The translations under genes and the position numbers were made by a program. From assembly GCF_003284895.1 (NCBI RefSeq), contig NZ_QMDV01000004.1:312501-376500 (forward strand): DNA of 64,000 bases. The letters are read 5' to 3'. The stretch is from Pontibacter arcticus. GTDB taxonomy: Bacteria > Bacteroidota > Bacteroidia > Cytophagales > Hymenobacteraceae. Under the pieces are notes generated by a model. That model was not told the origin of the DNA, did no database searches, and worked only from the letters and a program-made list of their open reading frames with translations. Shown here in pieces: positions 37,236 through 45,401 of this stretch (the stretch's first letter is position 1; every line of letters begins with the position of its first letter).

Positions 37236-38462
37236 ATGAAGGAAATTCAGGATATAGTTATAGCGTTTGAGCAGGCCCGGATGCAGCATAAAAAAGCTGC
37301 GCTGGCAACTGTGGTGCACGTAGAAGGTTCTTCGTACAGAAGGCCGGGCGCGCGCATGCTGGTAACAGAAGACGGACAACTGACCGGCGCCATAAGCGGC
37401 GGTTGCCTGGAAGGTGATGCGTTGCGCAAAGCCCGGCGCGTCATGCTGGAGCAAAAGGCTATGCTCATCACCTACGATACCACGGATGATGATGACGCTA
37501 AACTGGGCGTAGGGCTGGGCTGCAACGGCATTATCAAAATCCTGATCGAACCCATCAACCCCAAAGATCCGGATAACCCGATTTCATACTTCAGGTCGTT
37601 TTTAAGCAGCCGCCAGAAAGCAGTTCTCGTCACACTTTTTTCTTTGGAAAGCAGAACTGCGGAACAGCCGGGTACGTGCCTTTTTATACCTGAAAACGGA
37701 AGTATGGCCGGCCAATGTAAGGACAAAACCATTCAGGAGGCGTTATTGGCTGAGGCACAACTTGTACTTGAAACAGGCAGCTCCGTAACTAAAACGTATA
37801 TTTCTGCTGATACTTCGCTAACTGGTTTTGTAGAAATACTGAAGCCTGCTGTTTCGCTTGTGGTGGTGGGTGCCGGCAACGATGCCATTCCGCTTACGCA
37901 ACTGGCCGCCATACTTGGGTGGCAGGTTACGGTGGTTGATGGCCGGGCTAATTACGCTACCGTGGTTCGTTTTCCCGCTGCGCAGCGTGTACTAGTTGCT
38001 AAACCGGAGCAGGTGCTTAATCAGGTTCAAACAGACGATCAAACTATTTTTGTCTTGATGACGCACAATTATATTTATGACCTGGCCATGCTGCGACAGT
38101 TATTGCCGTTACAATTGCCTTATATCGGCTCATTAGGCCCCAAAAAGAAACTGGACCGCATGTTAACGGAGTTGCAGGAGGAAGGGATGGTTATTACAGA
38201 AGCGCAAATATCGCATGTTTACGGACCAACCGGATTAGACATCGGTGCTGAAACCCCTGAAGAAATTGCGCTTTCCATCATCTCAGAAATTAAATCTGTA
38301 CTTGCCCATAAAAAAGGAGCGTCATTAAAGTATAAACAGGACGTGATCCATCCGCGTGATGAAGCTGCGATCGGAGTTGAGTTTTTAGGTGAGAAGCTTC
38401 CGCAAAGTATAAATGAAGTAGCTGATTTAAGTATAAAAGGCAGCTTTACCTGTGGTATTTAA
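37236..38462 (+). CDS. XdhC/CoxI-family molybdenum cofactor insertion protein
   Basis: 408 residues. The N-terminal XdhC/CoxI domain has ALATVVHVEGSSYRRPGARM and GAISGGCLEGDA; the C-terminal Rossmann-like part has VVVGAGNDAIPLTQLAAILG, FVLMTHNYIYDLAMLRQLL and PYIGSLGPKKKLDRML. XdhC proteins bind the sulfurated cofactor and deliver it to xanthine oxidase-family apoenzymes, like PaoD. It can serve all three molybdoenzymes in this region. TACCTTG at 37192-37198 is a weak -7 candidate of its own. Confidence 0.9.
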   Translation: MKEIQDIVIAFEQARMQHKKAALATVVHVEGSSYRRPGARMLVTEDGQLTGAISGGCLEGDALRKARRVMLEQKAMLITYDTTDDDDAKLGVGLGCNGIIKILIEPINPKDPDNPISYFRSFLSSRQKAVLVTLFSLESRTAEQPGTCLFIPENGSMAGQCKDKTIQEALLAEAQLVLETGSSVTKTYISADTSLTGFVEILKPAVSLVVVGAGNDAIPLTQLAAILGWQVTVVDGRANYATVVRFPAAQRVLVAKPEQVLNQVQTDDQTIFVLMTHNYIYDLAMLRQLLPLQLPYIGSLGPKKKLDRMLTELQEEGMVITEAQISHVYGPTGLDIGAETPEEIALSIISEIKSVLAHKKGASLKYKQDVIHPRDEAAIGVEFLGEKLPQSINEVADLSIKGSFTCGI

Positions 38463-38499
38463 AATTTGAACGGTTCAGGAATAATACTTCTGTGATAGT

Positions 38500-38735
38500 T
38501 TTCATCCCGAACACAGTGAGAGATCAAGTGCGGTCAACTCAAGCCAGATTTGTCATCTCGACAACAGGAGAGATCTGTTTAGAACACCCGTAATTGTATC
38601 CCAGATAGATTTCTCGTTGCACTCGAAATGACAGCTTAATAAAGCAGCTTAATAGCTTAAAACACTTAAGTTGATAGCGTCGATGAGAGATCTAGTTGGA
38701 ATTTTAATAAGATTTCTCCTATTGCCGAAATGACA
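38500..38735. repeat. Diverged GTCATCTCGA..GAGAGATCT palindromic repeats
   Basis: At least four units lie in the 318-base gap between xdhC and mocA, two direct and two inverted: near 38500-38527, 38550-38580 (tgtcatctcgacaacaggag and following), 38602-38634 (inverted) and 38709-38735 (inverted). A further partial unit is near 38680-38692. They are imperfect copies of the 35-base ends of the GIY-YIG unit at 43204-43648. No ORF is enclosed here, so this may be a remnant or a solo repeat cluster. Confidence 0.7.
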
Positions 38736-38780
38736 TCATACTTTGAAGCGATTATAAAGCTAAGTTTATAACAAAAAGCC

Positions 38781-39380
38781 ATGACGGGACTGGTCATACT
38801 AGCAGCAGGAGCTTCCACACGGTTAGGTAAACCGAAGCAGAATTTATACTTTGAAGGGGCCACGCTGCTGCAGCGCGCTGTGAAAACAGCCTTGATTTCG
38901 GTATGCGATCCTATTATAGTGGTGCTCAGTCCTGATGCCAGTTATACTTTACCTGAAGACAAAACCAAAACCGTTACCATTGTTCGGAATTCAGAGTGGC
39001 AGGAGGGGATGGCATCTTCAATTCGCATTGGACTTCTAACCTTACTCGAAGCAAGTTCAGAGATTACTTCCAGTATCTTTATGGTATGCGACCAGCCTTT
39101 TGTAGAGGCCGCTTTGCTACATAACATCGTGCAAACGAAAACAGAAAGTGGCAAAGGTATAGTGGCTAGCAAGTATAAAGATACGCTGGGTACCCCTGTG
39201 CTTTTTGATAAAAGATACTTCCCCGAACTGCTGGCGCTGCAAGGGCAGGAAGGCGCAAAAAGATTGATAGCAAAGTATAAAGAGGATGTTGCAGCTGTTG
39301 ATTTTCCGCTTGGCTATGTGGATATAGACACCTCAGACGATTACAACGCGCTGATTAAACCAGAAAACGATACATTCTAA
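38781..39380 (+). CDS. mocA: MocA-like molybdenum cofactor cytidylyltransferase
   Basis: 199 residues. LVILAAGASTRLGKPKQNL is the nucleotide-binding loop of the MobA/MocA family, EGMASSIRIGL follows, and VCDQPFVEAALL carries the metal-binding Asp region. MocA attaches CMP to molybdopterin to give the cytosine dinucleotide cofactor used by PaoABC-type and related hydroxylases, which fits the neighbours on both sides. MobA-type guanylyltransferase is the alternative, but a separate MobA-like gene exists at 45382. Confidence 0.87.
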   Translation: MTGLVILAAGASTRLGKPKQNLYFEGATLLQRAVKTALISVCDPIIVVLSPDASYTLPEDKTKTVTIVRNSEWQEGMASSIRIGLLTLLEASSEITSSIFMVCDQPFVEAALLHNIVQTKTESGKGIVASKYKDTLGTPVLFDKRYFPELLALQGQEGAKRLIAKYKEDVAAVDFPLGYVDIDTSDDYNALIKPENDTF

Positions 39381-39450
39381 ATTGCGGCTGCCTATATGGT
39401 TGCTTCCGGATATTTTCTATCTTAGTGTTTAAACTTAACAGAATTTACGG

Positions 39451-39915
39451 ATGGCAAAGTATAAGCTGCAAATCAATGGCCGTGCCTATGAGGCCGATGT
39501 GGAACCGGATACCCCGCTTTTGTGGGTGCTACGCGATAACCTGGGGTTGGTAGGTACAAAGTATGGCTGTGGTATTGCGCAGTGCGGCGCCTGCACCGTG
39601 CATGTAAACGGCAACCCGATGCGCTCCTGCGTGTACCCGGTTTCAGCTGCAGCAAATGCCACGATCACCACCATTGAAGGCCTCGAAACCAACGGAAAAC
39701 TGCATGCCGTGCAGCAGGCCTGGGACAAGGTAGACGTGGCGCAATGTGGCTATTGCCAAGCTGGCCAGATCATGACAGCAACTGCTTTCCTGAGCAAAAA
39801 CCCGAACCCAACCGAAGCAGAAATAGAAACCGCCATGAATGGGAATATCTGCCGCTGCGGTACGTATCACCGCATCCGTGAAGCTGTTGCCTTAGCCGCC
39901 ACAAAACTGAATTAG
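39451..39915 (+). CDS. IorA-like (2Fe-2S) small subunit
   Basis: 154 residues with two 2Fe-2S motifs: GCGIAQCGACTVHV and AQCGYCQAGQIM with NICRCGTYHRIR. It has no signal peptide and resembles the small subunit of isoquinoline 1-oxidoreductase-like enzymes, which work without a flavin subunit and donate electrons to cytochromes or other carriers. The following gene begins 2 bases after its stop, so the pair is tightly coupled. Confidence 0.92.
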   Translation: MAKYKLQINGRAYEADVEPDTPLLWVLRDNLGLVGTKYGCGIAQCGACTVHVNGNPMRSCVYPVSAAANATITTIEGLETNGKLHAVQQAWDKVDVAQCGYCQAGQIMTATAFLSKNPNPTEAEIETAMNGNICRCGTYHRIREAVALAATKLN

Positions 39916-39917
39916 CC

Positions 39918-42065
39918 ATGACCGACATCTCTACAACAAGCAGACGCAGTTTTATGAAGCTTGCTGCCACGGCTGGCGGCGGACTTATGTTAGGCTTCAG
40001 CTGGACCAGCACCTTGGCCTCAACGGCTATGGAAGTACTAACCGATACCCAACTGGCAAGCGGCAATATCAACTTCAACAGCTATCTTTCTATTTCTCCG
40101 GATAATATTATTACCATACTTTCACCAAACCCGGAACTGGGGCAGAACATCAAAACCTCTTTCCCGATGATTGTGGCCGAAGAGCTGGATGCGGACTGGA
40201 CGAAAGTGAAAGTAGTACAAGCTGCCTTAGATACCAACAAGTTTGAGCGCCAGGTAACCGGTGGCAGTGGGGCCGTACCGCATTCCTGGGAGCGACTGCG
40301 CAAAGCCGGAGCAACCGCCAGGCACATGCTGATGGAAGCGGCAGCCAAGCGCTGGAAAGTTTCTGTAGACACCGTATCAACCGAAAACGGCATGGTGCTG
40401 CACAAAGCAAGTAATCGAAAACTTAGCTATGGCGAGCTGGCAACAGAAGCATCTAAAGTTGCTGTTCCAACAGAAGTTAAACTAAAAGATCAGAAAGATT
40501 TCAAGCTGATCGGCAAAGCTATACGCAACGTTGATAACTACGAAATGATAACCGGCAAACCGCTTTACGGACTGGATGTCTATAAAGAAGGCATGCTGTA
40601 TGCTGTCATACAGCGGCCAAAGGCATTCGGTATGAAACTGAAATCCGTAGATGCGGCAGCGGCCAAAGCTGTACCTGGCGTAGTGGATGTGGTTACGTTC
40701 AAAAACAATGTAGCAGTGGTGGGTACCTCTACCTGGCAGGTTAATAAAGCACGGAAAGCGCTTAAAGTGGAGTACGAAGCAGAAGGCACGCTGGAGAGTT
40801 CTGCGGATCACGACCGTATTTTCAAAGAATTACTGGCAGGAAAAGAAGCCACAGAGCGCCGCAAAGACGGAGATGTTGACACAGCCTTTAAAAATGCAGC
40901 AAAAGTAATCACAGCCGAGTACCAATGTCCTTTCCTGTCGCATAGCCCGATGGAGCCCATGAACTTCTTTGCGGATGTTCGCCCGGATGGTGTGGAACTG
41001 ATCGGACCGATACAAACGCCGGAAAGAGCACGCGGCGACGTGGCGAAACTCCTGAACATCGCCCCTGAAAAGATCACCTTAGAATTAACCCGTTTGGGTG
41101 GCGGCTTCGGCAGAAGACTTTACGGCGATTATGTGCTGGAAGCTGCCGAACTTTCAAGCATAATTAAGAAGCCGATCAAACTGATCTGGACCCGCGAAGA
41201 CGATATGACCGGTGGTACGTATCGTCCGGCGGTGCGTTATCGTTTTGAGGCTGCTTTGGATAAAAAAGGCAACATGATCGGCTATAAGCTGCGCGGCGCA
41301 GGCATCAATTCTGGTAATCCTACCCGGGAAGATAATTTCCCGTCAGGTGCTGTAGAAAACTTACTCATCGAATCAGTAGAACATAAATCGCCTATTACGA
41401 CCGGAGCATGGCGCGCACCAATTACCAACTTCCTGGCGTTTGCAGAGCAGGCATTTTTGGATGAAGTGGCCCAGGCAGCTAAAAAAGATCCAATACAATT
41501 CCGCCTGGAGTTGCTCGACAAAGCAAAAACGGCTCCGGTTGGTGCCATCAAGTATGACCTCGACAGGATGAAAGGCGTGATTACGCTGGCAGCAGAAAAA
41601 GCAAATTGGGGCAAAAAGAAAGGCGTTTCGCAAGGCTTCAGTGTATACTTTTCGCACAGGTCGTATGTAGCGCAGGTAGCCGATGTGGTGATGAAAGATG
41701 GCAAGCCGACCATCGATAGAATTCATGCTGCTGTAGATTGCGGTATTGTAGTGAACCTGAGTGGTGCTTACCAGCAGGTGCGCGGTGGTGTGATCGATGG
41801 GTTAGGCCACGCCATGTACAGCAACCTGACGTTTAAAGCTGGTGCTGCCGAGCAGAGCAATTTCAATAATTATCGCCTGATACGCATGAAGGAAGTACCG
41901 GAAGTAGACGTGCATTTCATTAATAACGGCATCGACCCGACTGGCTTGGGAGAGCCGGCATTACCGCCAACAGGTGGTGCCGTAGCAAATGCCCTGTTCA
42001 AAGCAACTGGCAAGCGTTTGCGAAACCAGCCCTTCATCAATCAGCCGGAGCTGAAAAATGTATAA
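39918..42065 (+). CDS. IorB-like molybdopterin-binding subunit, Tat-exported
   Basis: 715 residues. A twin-arginine signal (SRRSFMKLAATAGGGLML, about residues 8-25) is followed by xanthine oxidase-fold motifs: GGGFGRRLYGDYVLEAAE, a TGAWRAPITNFLAFAEQAF segment, and DPTGLGEPALPPTGGAV with the catalytic Glu. This is the aldehyde/isoquinoline oxidoreductase beta-subunit class. With the Tat-tagged large subunit the pair is probably periplasmic, and a periplasmic cytochrome c is encoded at 49095-49505. The true substrate is unknown. Confidence 0.92.
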   Translation: MTDISTTSRRSFMKLAATAGGGLMLGFSWTSTLASTAMEVLTDTQLASGNINFNSYLSISPDNIITILSPNPELGQNIKTSFPMIVAEELDADWTKVKVVQAALDTNKFERQVTGGSGAVPHSWERLRKAGATARHMLMEAAAKRWKVSVDTVSTENGMVLHKASNRKLSYGELATEASKVAVPTEVKLKDQKDFKLIGKAIRNVDNYEMITGKPLYGLDVYKEGMLYAVIQRPKAFGMKLKSVDAAAAKAVPGVVDVVTFKNNVAVVGTSTWQVNKARKALKVEYEAEGTLESSADHDRIFKELLAGKEATERRKDGDVDTAFKNAAKVITAEYQCPFLSHSPMEPMNFFADVRPDGVELIGPIQTPERARGDVAKLLNIAPEKITLELTRLGGGFGRRLYGDYVLEAAELSSIIKKPIKLIWTREDDMTGGTYRPAVRYRFEAALDKKGNMIGYKLRGAGINSGNPTREDNFPSGAVENLLIESVEHKSPITTGAWRAPITNFLAFAEQAFLDEVAQAAKKDPIQFRLELLDKAKTAPVGAIKYDLDRMKGVITLAAEKANWGKKKGVSQGFSVYFSHRSYVAQVADVVMKDGKPTIDRIHAAVDCGIVVNLSGAYQQVRGGVIDGLGHAMYSNLTFKAGAAEQSNFNNYRLIRMKEVPEVDVHFINNGIDPTGLGEPALPPTGGAVANALFKATGKRLRNQPFINQPELKNV

Positions 42066-42084
42066 AAGTTAATAGCAAGTATAG

Positions 42085-42128
42085 CACACCGTCTTCAGTA
42101 AATCAAATCAGAAGGCGGTGTGTTTTTA
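42085..42128 (+). terminator. Hairpin terminator after the IorAB-like genes
   Basis: Stem cacaccgtcttc / gaaggcggtgtg (12 bp with one G-T pair), loop of 14 bases, then TTTTTA. Confidence 0.8.
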
Positions 42129-42198
42129 TTTTATGAAAAGGCATTGGCGGACCCGTCAGTTTTACCCATACTTTTCAAAATATCCCGTATAGCAGAGC

Positions 42199-43185
42199 AT
42201 GTTGATAGACAGACACGGAAGAAAAATCAATTATTTAAGGCTGGCAGTAACTGACAGGTGCAACCTACGCTGTTTCTATTGCATGCCCGAAGAAGGCATT
42301 GACTGGCTTTCGCGGCAGGAACTGATGTCGTATGAAGAAATGCTGCAGATCAGTTCGGTGCTGGTGGGGATGGGAGTAGAGAAGATCCGCATTACCGGAG
42401 GAGAACCTTTCGTGCGCAAAGACTTTATGCCTTTTCTGACTGATCTTTCAAAACTGAATGGGCTGCAACAACTAACGCTCACAACTAACGGCGTACTCAC
42501 GGCTCCCTTCGTGCCCGAACTAAAAAAGATCGGTGTTTCCTCTGTAAATCTCAGCCTGGATACCCTGGATCGGCAGCGCTTTCTGGATATTACCCGCCGC
42601 GATGAACTGCCAAGTGTACTGGGTACATTGGAGGCTTTGCTCAAGTATGACATCGAAGTAAAGATAAATGCCGTGGTGATGGAAGGCAGAAATACCGAAG
42701 ACATACTTCCGCTTGTAGAACTGACCAGAGACTTGCCCGTTAGTGTGCGTTTTATTGAAGAGATGCCCTTCAACGGTGGTTCTCACCAAGCGTCCTTGTC
42801 CTGGGATCATGTGCAGATTCTGGAAGCGATCAAGTATAAACATGCTGCTATTCAAAAACTACCGGACCCGCTTTATTCAACATCATACAATTATCAGATA
42901 CCCGGCTATAAAGGCACGGTCGGTATTATTGCGGCGTATACCCGCTCGTTCTGCGGCACTTGCAACCGTATTCGCTTAACACCACAAGGAGATTTAAAAA
43001 CATGCCTTTATGGCAACAGCGTGCTGAACGTAAAAGACCTGATGCGCGCAGATACAACGCTGAACGGACTTGAAACAGCGCTTCGAGAAGCTGTCAGTAA
43101 GAAAGAAGCAAATGGCTGGGAAGCAGAAAAGAACGTGGTGGGTTTGCCAATACTTAATGCCTCTATGGCCACTATTGGAGGGTAG
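42199..43185 (+). CDS. moaA: GTP 3',8-cyclase, radical SAM
   Basis: 328 residues. The radical-SAM cluster motif CNLRCFYC lies near residue 22-29 and a second 4Fe-4S is bound by FCGTCNRIRLTPQGDLKTC near residues 253-271. The protein ends in Gly-Gly (MATIGG), as required for MoaA activity. It makes the first intermediate of molybdopterin together with MoaC (44925). The gene is preceded by a terminator and followed by the GIY-YIG unit that separates it from moeA. Confidence 0.96.
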   Translation: MLIDRHGRKINYLRLAVTDRCNLRCFYCMPEEGIDWLSRQELMSYEEMLQISSVLVGMGVEKIRITGGEPFVRKDFMPFLTDLSKLNGLQQLTLTTNGVLTAPFVPELKKIGVSSVNLSLDTLDRQRFLDITRRDELPSVLGTLEALLKYDIEVKINAVVMEGRNTEDILPLVELTRDLPVSVRFIEEMPFNGGSHQASLSWDHVQILEAIKYKHAAIQKLPDPLYSTSYNYQIPGYKGTVGIIAAYTRSFCGTCNRIRLTPQGDLKTCLYGNSVLNVKDLMRADTTLNGLETALREAVSKKEANGWEAEKNVVGLPILNASMATIGG

Positions 43186-43203
43186 CTTGTAAGGTTTCTT
43201 CTT

Positions 43204-43238
43204 TTTTTGTCATCTCGAACAACGTGAGAGATCTATCT
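43204..43238 (+). repeat. Left inverted repeat of the GIY-YIG unit
   Basis: Core tgtcatctcgaacaacgtga and following 11 bases, preceded by a T run. It matches the right arm at 43614-43648 with a single difference (aac versus atc in the centre). Confidence 0.85.
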
Positions 43239-43281
43239 AAAATAGCATTTTATAGTAAGTATAAATACAGCTAAAACTTAG

Positions 43282-43593
43282 ATGCCTTCGCACAACTATT
43301 TTACTTACATCACGACTAATCCCAAAAGAACAACTTTCTACATTGGAGTTACAAATGACCTGGTAAGACGCTTGCGGGAGCACTTTGAAAACGATGGAAA
43401 CAGTAAAACTTTTGCTGGTAAATACTATTGCTACAACTTAATCTACTACGAGAGGTTTACCCAAGTTGAACATGCAATAGCACAAGAGAAAGAGCTTAAA
43501 AAATGGAGTCGTAGCAAAAAGGAAGCACTGGTTAAGGCATCAAATCCGTTCATGAAATTTTTAAATCATGAGATACAGGATGATCAGGATTGA
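43282..43593 (+). CDS. GIY-YIG domain nuclease, small
   Basis: 103 residues. YFTYITTNPKRTTFYIGVTN provides the two Tyr-rich strands, DLVRRLREH the conserved Arg, and AIAQEKELKKWSRSKKEAL the metal-binding Glu helix of the GIY-YIG fold. It lacks extra domains, like the UPF0213 group. Enzymes of this fold nick or cut DNA. Enclosure within near-identical inverted repeats suggests that it acts on the repeats, for example on their hairpin form. The start is the ATG at 43282, 43 bases after the left arm. Confidence 0.9.
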   Translation: MPSHNYFTYITTNPKRTTFYIGVTNDLVRRLREHFENDGNSKTFAGKYYCYNLIYYERFTQVEHAIAQEKELKKWSRSKKEALVKASNPFMKFLNHEIQDDQD

Positions 43594-43613
43594 TGAAGGC
43601 TTTCAGGAATCTG

Positions 43614-43648
43614 AGATAGATCTCTCACGATGTTCGAGATGACAAAAA
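43614..43648 (-). repeat. Right inverted repeat of the GIY-YIG unit
   Basis: Inverted copy of the left arm, one mismatch in 35. It lies 20 bases after the GIY-YIG stop codon and 20 bases before the moeA start. Confidence 0.85.
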
Positions 43649-43668
43649 GGCTAGTATAGTTTACACCT

Positions 43669-44871
43669 ATGATTAAAGTAGAAGAAGCGGAAGCGATCAT
43701 ACAGGCGCAGGCCCGAAACTATGGAGTAGAAGTTGTGCCCCTGGAGCAGGCATTGGGCCGGGTGCTGGCCATAGACCTGAAAGCTGACCGGGATCTTCCG
43801 CCATTTAACCGGGTTGCGATGGATGGCATTGCGATCAAGTATGAAGCGTTTAAACAAGGCACGCGCACTTTTCATATCAATGCAACACAAGCCGCCGGCG
43901 ATAAACCGGTGGAGATTTATACTTTGGATGCCTGCAACGAAATCATGACCGGTGCCGCTTTGCCAACTACTGTCGATACGGTAATCCGGTACGAAGATCT
44001 GGAAATTAAGAATGGTACTGCCACCATTTTAACGGATGAAATTAAGCGGGGCCAGAACATTCATCAGCAAGGAAAAGATAAGCAAGCTGGCGATGTGGTG
44101 GCGCCTGCAAACAAGCTTATTGATGCTGCCTTAATAGGAGTGGCCGCATCGGTGGGTGCAACAGAACTGCGCGTGAAAACGCTTCCGAAAGTGGTGGTTA
44201 TTTCTACCGGAGATGAGTTGGTTGCTATACAGGATTCGCCACTACCGTATCAGATCAGAAAATCGAATACTTATACGATACAGGCGGCTTTGCAAAAGTA
44301 TAAAATTGAGGCTGAGCTGCTTCATATTCCGGATGATCGCCAAAGTATAAAGCAGCAACTACAGAAATGCCTGCAAAAGTATGATGTGATTATACTAAGC
44401 GGTGGCATTTCGATGGGCAAGTTTGATTATGTACCCGAAGTGTTGGAAGATCTGGAAGTGAAAAAACTTTTTCATAAAGTACAGCAGCGACCCGGCAAAC
44501 CTTTCTGGTTTGGAAAGCATGCCAACGGCGTACTGGTATTTGCATTGCCCGGCAATCCGGCCTCCACATTTATGTGCCTGCACCGCTACTTTATGCCGTG
44601 GCTACAGAAAAGTATAGGTTTGCCTGAAGCTAAGGTATACGCTGCTTTAAGTATAGACTTCGTTTTTGAGGCACCTCTGCAATACTTTCTGCAGGTAAGT
44701 TTAAGTATAAACCCGAAAGGCCAATTGATTGCCACGCCACTGGCAGGAAACGGTTCCGGTGATTTTGCGAACCTGGTAGAGGCCAATGCTTTTCTGGAGC
44801 TGCCCGCTGAAAAAAGTAATTTTAAGCAGGGAGAAGTATACAGAGTTTGGCCGTTTAAGCCGCTAGTATAA
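43669..44871 (+). CDS. moeA: Molybdopterin molybdotransferase
   Basis: 400 residues with MoeA landmarks: ALGRVLAIDLKADRDLPPFN at the N-terminus, TGAALPTTVDTVIRYED, STGDELV, LSGGISMGKFDYVPEVLE and ALPGNPASTFMCLHRYF. It inserts molybdate into adenylylated molybdopterin. No MogA/MoaB adenylyltransferase was found in the window, so that step is presumably encoded elsewhere. AGT-ATA codon pairs (Ser-Ile) recur several times in this gene, matching the AAGTATA motif. Confidence 0.95.
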   Translation: MIKVEEAEAIIQAQARNYGVEVVPLEQALGRVLAIDLKADRDLPPFNRVAMDGIAIKYEAFKQGTRTFHINATQAAGDKPVEIYTLDACNEIMTGAALPTTVDTVIRYEDLEIKNGTATILTDEIKRGQNIHQQGKDKQAGDVVAPANKLIDAALIGVAASVGATELRVKTLPKVVVISTGDELVAIQDSPLPYQIRKSNTYTIQAALQKYKIEAELLHIPDDRQSIKQQLQKCLQKYDVIILSGGISMGKFDYVPEVLEDLEVKKLFHKVQQRPGKPFWFGKHANGVLVFALPGNPASTFMCLHRYFMPWLQKSIGLPEAKVYAALSIDFVFEAPLQYFLQVSLSINPKGQLIATPLAGNGSGDFANLVEANAFLELPAEKSNFKQGEVYRVWPFKPLV

Positions 44872-44924
44872 AAGTATAAACCGGCCCACATACAGCAACT
44901 GAAGTATAAATTAGCAAGTATAAC

Positions 44925-45401
44925 ATGAGTGAATTTTCGCACCTGAACGATAAAGGACAAGCCACGATGGTGGATGTGGGAGGAAAGCAGGCGACCCACC
45001 GCACCGCTACTGCCAGAAGTATAGTTTCGTTACCTTCTGAGGTACTGGAAAAATTAGTGGAAGGAGACATTCAGACAAAAAAGGGCTCAGTTTTCCAGAC
45101 GGCTATTATTGCCGGAATTATGGCCGCCAAAAAAACCGGTGATCTGATTCCGCTTTGCCACCCCATCGGCATGGATAATTGCCACATCAGTATACAGCTA
45201 AATGAGCAGCAAGAAGTTGTCATCGACTGTACAGCCAGTATTACAGCCAAAACAGGTATAGAAATGGAAGCGCTGGTGGGTGCTTCGGTGGCCGCGCTTA
45301 CGGTGTATGATATGTGCAAAGCCCTGAGCCACGACATTGTGATCAAAGAAACGAAGCTGATAGAAAAGACAGGAGGGAAGCGTGACTTCAAAAGAGCATA
45401 A
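44925..45401 (+). CDS. moaC: Cyclic pyranopterin monophosphate synthase
   Basis: 158 residues, the usual MoaC length, with LIPLCHPIGMDNCHIS and MCKALSHDIVIKETKLIEK. It completes the MoaA reaction. In many Bacteroidota MoaC is fused to a MoaB/MogA-like domain (from memory), but here it stands alone. The end overlaps the MobA-fusion start by 20 bases. The 53 bases upstream hold three AAGTATA copies. Confidence 0.96.
   Translation: MSEFSHLNDKGQATMVDVGGKQATHRTATARSIVSLPSEVLEKLVEGDIQTKKGSVFQTAIIAGIMAAKKTGDLIPLCHPIGMDNCHISIQLNEQQEVVIDCTASITAKTGIEMEALVGASVAALTVYDMCKALSHDIVIKETKLIEKTGGKRDFKRA

Follow-up and report, generated by a model that had tools for sequence, protein, structure and literature searches.

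Stand-alone GIY-YIG nuclease genes and their cognate REP hairpins in Bacteroidota: a probable two-part repeat system parallel to REPIN/RAYT

Why should a small nuclease gene lie on its own between two molybdenum-cofactor genes, enclosed on either side by inverted repeats? The question is raised by an element in a 64,000-nucleotide stretch of the Pontibacter arcticus genome (contig NZ_QMDV01000004.1, positions 312,501 to 376,500; hereafter the window), for which a first-pass annotation had proposed a REP-like system built on a GIY-YIG nuclease. Our comparisons point, with a probability of roughly 0.8, to a two-part selfish repeat system in which a stand-alone GIY-YIG nuclease is paired with cognate REP hairpins, in parallel to REPIN/RAYT.

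The element comprises a left inverted arm (43204..43243, plus strand), a single gene (43282..43593, plus strand) and a right inverted arm (43609..43648, minus strand). Inside the left arm lies a REP unit (43209-43233) of the form GTCAT-stem-loop-stem-ATC with its TGTC tag facing outward, and inside the right arm a second unit on the minus strand (43619-43643). The arms show 93% complementarity over 40 nt, and their outermost 35 nt differ at one position, just as had been described; the inverted-repeat score here is 32, as against a best value of 14 in 206 windows lying 1 kb off the genes of the fetched loci. The tag is TGTC rather than GTAG, and an AT foot (GTC-AT...AT-C) is present in both arms. 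The open reading frame codes for a protein of 103 residues with a single domain, PF01541 (E 1.5e-15, Pfam), in which Y9, Y20, G22, R30, H34 and E69 are the family-conserved positions. Upstream lies moaA (TIGR02666, E 8e-100, exceeding the cut-off) and downstream a MoeA homologue (E 1e-81), for which the full-length models fall below their cut-offs and the TIGR00177 domain lies above its own, so that the reported placement of one GIY-YIG gene between moaA and moeA is confirmed.

Further searches with the protein added little to this picture. The T5orf172 model overlaps PF01541, barely over its cut-off, with no further Pfam domain, and TIGR01453, the model for free-standing GIY-YIG homing endonucleases, scores 21.8 against a cut-off of 56. 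Antiphage-system models gave no match at E 0.01, PHROGs yielded weak homing-endonuclease matches alone (E 1e-4 or worse), and the relatives of known structure are remote, namely the UPF0213 proteins 1zg2 (E 1.3e-5) and 1ywl (E 7e-4). An Rfam scan of positions 38000-45000 of the window returned nothing up to E 1. The claim that each arm can form a hairpin fared less well: the palindromic unit is there, but the standard DNA fold of the arms gives -1.5 and -1.7 kcal/mol, and shuffles do as well; one class-B unit gives -2.1 (z -1.2). The standard fold model probably undervalues G.A pairs.

Units of this kind recur at other genes of the family. Using a search pattern that fixes the GTCAT and ATC ends and leaves the inner stem pairs and loops free, we found 103 of 131 distinct loci to have a strict unit no more than 300 bp away from the gene, as opposed to 6 of 207 control windows, each displaced by 1300 bp. 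Across 111 loci (the best 80 of 145 confirmed relatives from a scan of genome contigs together with 31 further loci, some genomes being in both sets), unit density was 3.49 per kb at up to 350 bp from the gene and 0.11 per kb beyond. Near-identical inverted pairs were found again around other GIY-YIG genes of this kind; among adjacent pairs of units the tags face outward in 70 of 115, inward in 28 and in tandem in 17. A strict unit is absent at 25 of 143 loci, including a four-member clade (L061, L062, L071 and L072, from Roseivirga, Cyclobacteriaceae and a Cytophagia MAG) whose genes have none nearby.

The make-up of the hairpins is informative in its own right. Since the search pattern imposes the AT foot on units at the other loci, only its enrichment near genes counts as evidence. 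The inner stem triplets, by contrast, were left free, and they are complementary in 259 of 389 GTCAT..ATC pairs (shuffled partners: mean 51, maximum 72), with 10 pair types among the inner stem pairs, which constitutes covariation between fixed ends. Beyond the 5-bp stem, the loop measures at least 9 nt in 176 of 268 units, 167 of which start and end with GA, and 3 nt in a further 85, of which 82 read GNA; neither the GA-bounded loops nor the GNA triloops are demanded by the pattern. DNA hairpins are stable with tandem G.A steps as well as with GNA triloops.

Repeat class follows protein clade. When long-loop and short-loop labels are placed on the protein tree, they require 5 changes over 103 labelled rows; with a third label for loci having no unit there are 21 changes over 128 rows (shuffled mean 54.9; as low in none of 200 shuffles), although such counts are inflated by near relatives sharing one site, and 69 of the 125 inner branches of the tree are unresolved. 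The genome of the window itself holds two paralogues, 55% identical, one with class-A arms and the other with class-B arms of different sequence. In 140 aligned rows Y9, Y20, G22, R30 and E69 are conserved at 99% or more, and H34 is likewise conserved. The dN/dS ratio is 0.05-0.15 in 9 of 11 pairs (those with finite dS), several of them near saturation. The low dN/dS values and the retained catalytic positions indicate that the nuclease is under purifying selection. On two contigs (G102:C31 and G115:C86) multiple gene copies lie a few kb apart, and the G102 copies carry stops.

The numbers of repeats across genomes also track the gene. It is present in 38 of 50 genomes of the genus, that of the window included, and absent from 12. 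Class-A units range from 0 to 204 per genus genome (reversed-pattern controls total 9 over all 50), class-B units from 0 to 59 (controls 0) and class-C units, with up to two mismatches allowed, from 0 to 14; by eye, many class-A units among the matches listed are paired with tags outward. Within the genus, possession of a gene of a given class goes with a higher copy number of that class of repeat (A, p 0.017; B, p 0.022; C, p 2e-6), and significance was not reached in five of the six cross-class tests, the exception being clade-C genes with class-A repeats (p 0.008). Some genus genomes are rich in repeats and have no gene (G045 with 63 class-A units, G033 with 57, G009 with 48, and G021 with 41 class-A and 59 class-B units), and class-A counts of 204, 159, 121 and 100 occur in genomes lacking a class-A gene. 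In a broader sample of 198 Bacteroidota genomes, the pattern matched 4998 times as against 299 for the reversed-pattern controls. Here 80 genomes scored positive for the gene, which was called at E 1e-12 from one query, so that diverged members of the family are scored as absent. The median repeat excess is 21 with the gene and 5 without (Mann-Whitney p 2e-10), and within-family permutation gave as high a difference in 4 of 5000 trials; nonetheless, 19 of the 118 gene-less genomes have an excess of at least 20, and 38 of the 80 gene-positive ones have less than 20.

Repeats also occur without the gene. In the window, between an XdhC-like and a MocA-like gene (best models below cut-off for both), the first-pass annotation had noted diverged copies of the arms in both orientations at 38500-38735, and these are real: the gap holds four units, three of them strict and the fourth with a mismatched tag. 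The fourth is a diverged unit at 38501..38525 (plus strand); two of the strict ones, at 38552-38575 (plus) and 38608-38632 (minus), form a REPIN-like head-to-head pair (38552..38632) with no gene inside, and the third lies in the same gap at 38711..38734 (minus). The scattered REPINs and single units would be the gene-less form of the system, and the window element its gene-bearing form, with the gene placed in the spacer of two outward-facing TGTC units; this carries the confidence that we place in the paired system as such. By eye, the class-A REPINs of G002 have a short spacer similar to both inner ends of the window element.

Class-B elements provide derivatives of a more explicit kind. 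Among the matches listed for a DNA search with one such element, L136, many genomes have short stretches of its left end. Eleven fetched copies (L208-L218, about 100 bp, judged by eye) consist of an L136-type left end of 60-70 bp followed, within about 10-35 bp, by a right unit of about 25 bp, with the gene absent; their left unit mostly reads GAAAC instead of GAATC, as does that of L136 itself. As they hold both ends of the gene-bearing element and lack the gene, they are MITE-like. L205 retains, by eye, the start of the gene and resembles an internal deletion of a gene-bearing unit. The pairs L211/L212, L211/L218 and L212/L218 have a common stretch of only about 101-106 bp, whereas other pairs (e.g., L209/L213, 187 bp) have longer flanks in common, within a larger palindrome. 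Some class-B REPINs (seen at L209, L210, L213-L215, L217 and L219 (G028)) sit within a larger palindrome like GTTTCATTCT...AGAATGAAAC; this palindrome was found without its REPIN in one copy in one of 50 genomes (G028), too few to call an empty site.

In the window's genome, L250, L251 and L253 are copies of a repeat of about 230-320 bp enclosing a class-B REPIN. The candidate case of L250 and L251 as identical REPINs with unrelated flanks was rejected, both lying inside this larger repeat of about 300 bp. Two class-B REPINs of this genome have a core identical at 69 of 69 positions, and the 317-bp alignment in which it lies has 83% identity as a whole; an identical REPIN core in a diverged repeat hints, from one pair, at conversion of the repeat.

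Such conversion bears on the strongest alternative, in which the REPINs are a long-standing target, and the nuclease gene, as their guest, places copies of itself in the spacers through DNA cleavage and repair by recombination, with the repeats spreading otherwise or being homogenised by conversion. The position of the gene between two outward units, exactly where the REPIN spacer lies, fits this, as do the 69 identical bases, which repeat conversion would be expected to leave. Yet the conversion-like pattern comes from one pair only, the genes are few (two in the window's genome) as compared to the repeats, of which a single class reaches 204 copies per genome, and L205 looks like a unit that lost its gene by internal deletion. 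We hence regard homing into pre-existing repeats as possible but rather unlikely, and favor the paired system, in which nuclease and repeats belong together.

Is the paired system mobile, and does the gene itself move? Among 20 relatives with a MoeA match, 14 have moaA adjoining, and the element is absent from all 14; their moaA-moeA gap measures 12-208 bp in thirteen and holds a different insert of 612 bp in one. This last case (L117, in G016) is a different insert of about 612 bp in another species, and the GIY-YIG matches of G016 lie on other contigs. By their flanks, the 143 oriented loci sort into 79 groups, of which 60 are singletons, the number of groups being an upper bound because diverged flanks would fail to match. 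The other 19 groups have two or more loci each (at most 14); a few of these represent one genome fetched twice and others different species. Since the gene's sites differ among loci, the molybdenum-cofactor genes are not a preferred site. No exact empty site could be read off at the moaA-moeA gaps of the relatives, which are too diverged to align, or for L136, where G040 and G030 have different, ORF-like sequence instead of the element; likewise, no target-site duplication could be resolved at either site, the intergenic flanks being too diverged. In two interspecies comparisons (L139 with L158, and L153 with L160) DNA homology starts at -49 and -54, near the left unit, and the upstream flank differs; the edge of homology is possibly a rearrangement break at the repeat. 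The proposal of a mobile unit stands in that paired repeats recur around such genes and that the gene, far from being kept in place in all relatives, is patchy in distribution and found at many sites. The gene itself seems to move rarely and often to be inherited in place, the repeats being what multiplied. RAYT genes behave alike, rarely moving and being inherited in place.

The association reaches other phyla. A tblastn search of plasmid records matched 31, of which 14 were fetched, one (Spirosoma) being from Bacteroidota. A strict CGTC/TGTC unit lies within 300 bp of the gene in 10 of the 14 (one of the ten from Bacteroidota; a count made without control windows), and in the proteobacterial relatives the tag reads CGTCAT. 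At the Neisseria and Photobacterium loci units are equally common farther from the gene; the N. gonorrhoeae homologue, 38% identical to the window protein, lies among dRS3-type units. By eye, variants of the form CGTCGCCCC/CGTCACCCC flank the gene on both sides in Novosphingobium and Sphingobium, a CTCAT variant is near the gene in Sinorhizobium K101, and no unit variant was seen at the Rhizobium tumorigenes locus. The Azospirillum lipoferum homologue sits between sufB and sufC.

How does this compare with what is known? As in REPIN/RAYT systems, there are tagged hairpins, inverted doublets, a low-copy flanked nuclease gene, many gene-less repeats and a matching of enzyme to repeat class; here, however, the pair is GIY-YIG with TGTC/CGTC, and there it is a Y1 HUH transposase with GTAG. 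With the MITEs of insertion sequences the system has in common gene-less derivatives carrying both ends of the autonomous unit, but it has no DDE transposase, and target duplication is not clear. Free-standing GIY-YIG homing endonucleases of the Seg/Mob type have the same domain and likely a similarly selfish life style; the present protein, at 103 residues, can hardly accommodate an additional DNA-binding domain (NUMOD or similar) and is tied to multicopy repeats instead of one conserved gene. Chenal et al. reportedly described in 2025 the Ssn family of GIY-YIG nucleases, which act on single strands at specific sites, have a cognate sequence that is repeated in Neisseria and count homologues by the thousand, and we take the window nuclease to resemble these. 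Both are small and stand-alone, and both have a repeated cognate sequence around the gene, with the active site intact in our protein; the Bacteroidota repeats are nonetheless other hairpins, with gene-bearing units that have inverted ends and with MITE-like derivatives. Such small GIY-YIG proteins are presumably filed under COG2827, which goes unmentioned in the available text of a 2006 survey of the GIY-YIG superfamily (PMC1564403).

The repeats have closer precedents. As far as their available text goes, Di Nocera, De Gregorio and Rocco (2013) described CGTC-tagged REPs with TGTC/CCTC variants, an AT stem foot and mostly head-to-head dimers in five phyla, Bacteroidetes among them, which take in Neisseria dRS3 and two Rickettsia RPE families, apparently have no dedicated transposase and flank no tyrosine transposase gene (PMC3733652). 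Our units agree in the CGTC/TGTC tag, the AT at the stem foot and the predominance of head-to-head dimers; they differ in having a 5-bp stem with a 3-nt GNA or longer GA-bounded loop and CT/TT tails, as opposed to the 8-9-bp stems, 4-5-nt loops and CCA tails in the accessible part of that account, and in having the dedicated gene partner said there to be lacking. The accessible text of PMC8040213 holds nothing on these repeats, and among the top matches in a largely open-access literature we found no paper linking them with a GIY-YIG gene. Thus, both the nuclease family and the repeat class have probably been described before; within the literature searched, what appears to be new is their pairing as a general REPIN-like system with CGTC REPs, together with its forms in Bacteroidota, the derivatives that lack the gene and the GA/GNA signature of the hairpins.

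It could also be that another enzyme, such as a RAYT/Y1 transposase, mobilises the repeats, with the GIY-YIG gene riding along or serving the host, for instance in controlling DNA uptake. The Ssn nuclease of Neisseria has a role in transformation, and genomes rich in repeats yet without the gene exist. Y1 transposase subclasses are moreover recorded for Bacteroidetes in the available part of PMC6006769. But in the 2013 account, as far as available, CGTC units were not found on the flanks of any tyrosine transposase gene (PMC3733652), and the GIY-YIG clades match the repeat classes, which makes this reading decidedly improbable. Finally, chance or terminator-like intergenic stem-loops that merely happen to flank a small intergenic gene, a notion to which short palindromes outside the gene and unremarkable fold energies might lend themselves, can be practically discarded given the controls (103 of 131 loci versus 6 of 207 windows; 4998 matches versus 299) and stems that covary between fixed ends.

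The paired system is accordingly the reading supported by the association, the class matching, the stem covariation, the MITE-like derivatives, the purifying selection and the patchy distribution; the repeat-rich genomes without a gene, the loci without a unit, the shared sites, the weak arm folds and the link of clade C with class A speak against it. The core of the initial proposal, a REP-like system with a GIY-YIG enzyme, thus has strong support from the association, from the matching of classes and from the derivatives without the gene, and reaches beyond Bacteroidota. A way in which it would operate can be proposed. The nuclease may recognise the hairpin once the DNA becomes single-stranded during replication, repair or uptake, and may cut beside the TGTC tag; the cut would release or expose the unit, which host repair or ligation would then copy or reinsert. 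To our knowledge, GIY-YIG enzymes hydrolyse DNA and have no joining activity, so joining and copying would be left to the host. That the nuclease recognises and moves or multiplies the repeats by these steps has perhaps even odds. The wider proposal, that the CGTC/TGTC REP superfamily as a whole, in all its bacterial phyla, has stand-alone GIY-YIG nucleases as its dedicated partners, is more tentative and falls somewhat short of that: there would then be another REPIN system of independent origin, whose non-joining nuclease spreads the repeats by cutting single-stranded hairpins (in Bacteroidota, those with GNA triloops or GA-bounded loops) while host repair does the copying.

The pairing would be a mirror image of REPIN/RAYT on another fold. 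Many natural nuclease/hairpin pairs with apparently different specificities are on offer, and these could serve as single-strand DNA tools. The 2013 account placed the CGTC REPs in five phyla with, in the available text, no dedicated enzyme (PMC3733652), and a matching nuclease makes their origin testable. Together, these observations suggest that a large class of bacterial repeats has its missing partners in small GIY-YIG nucleases.
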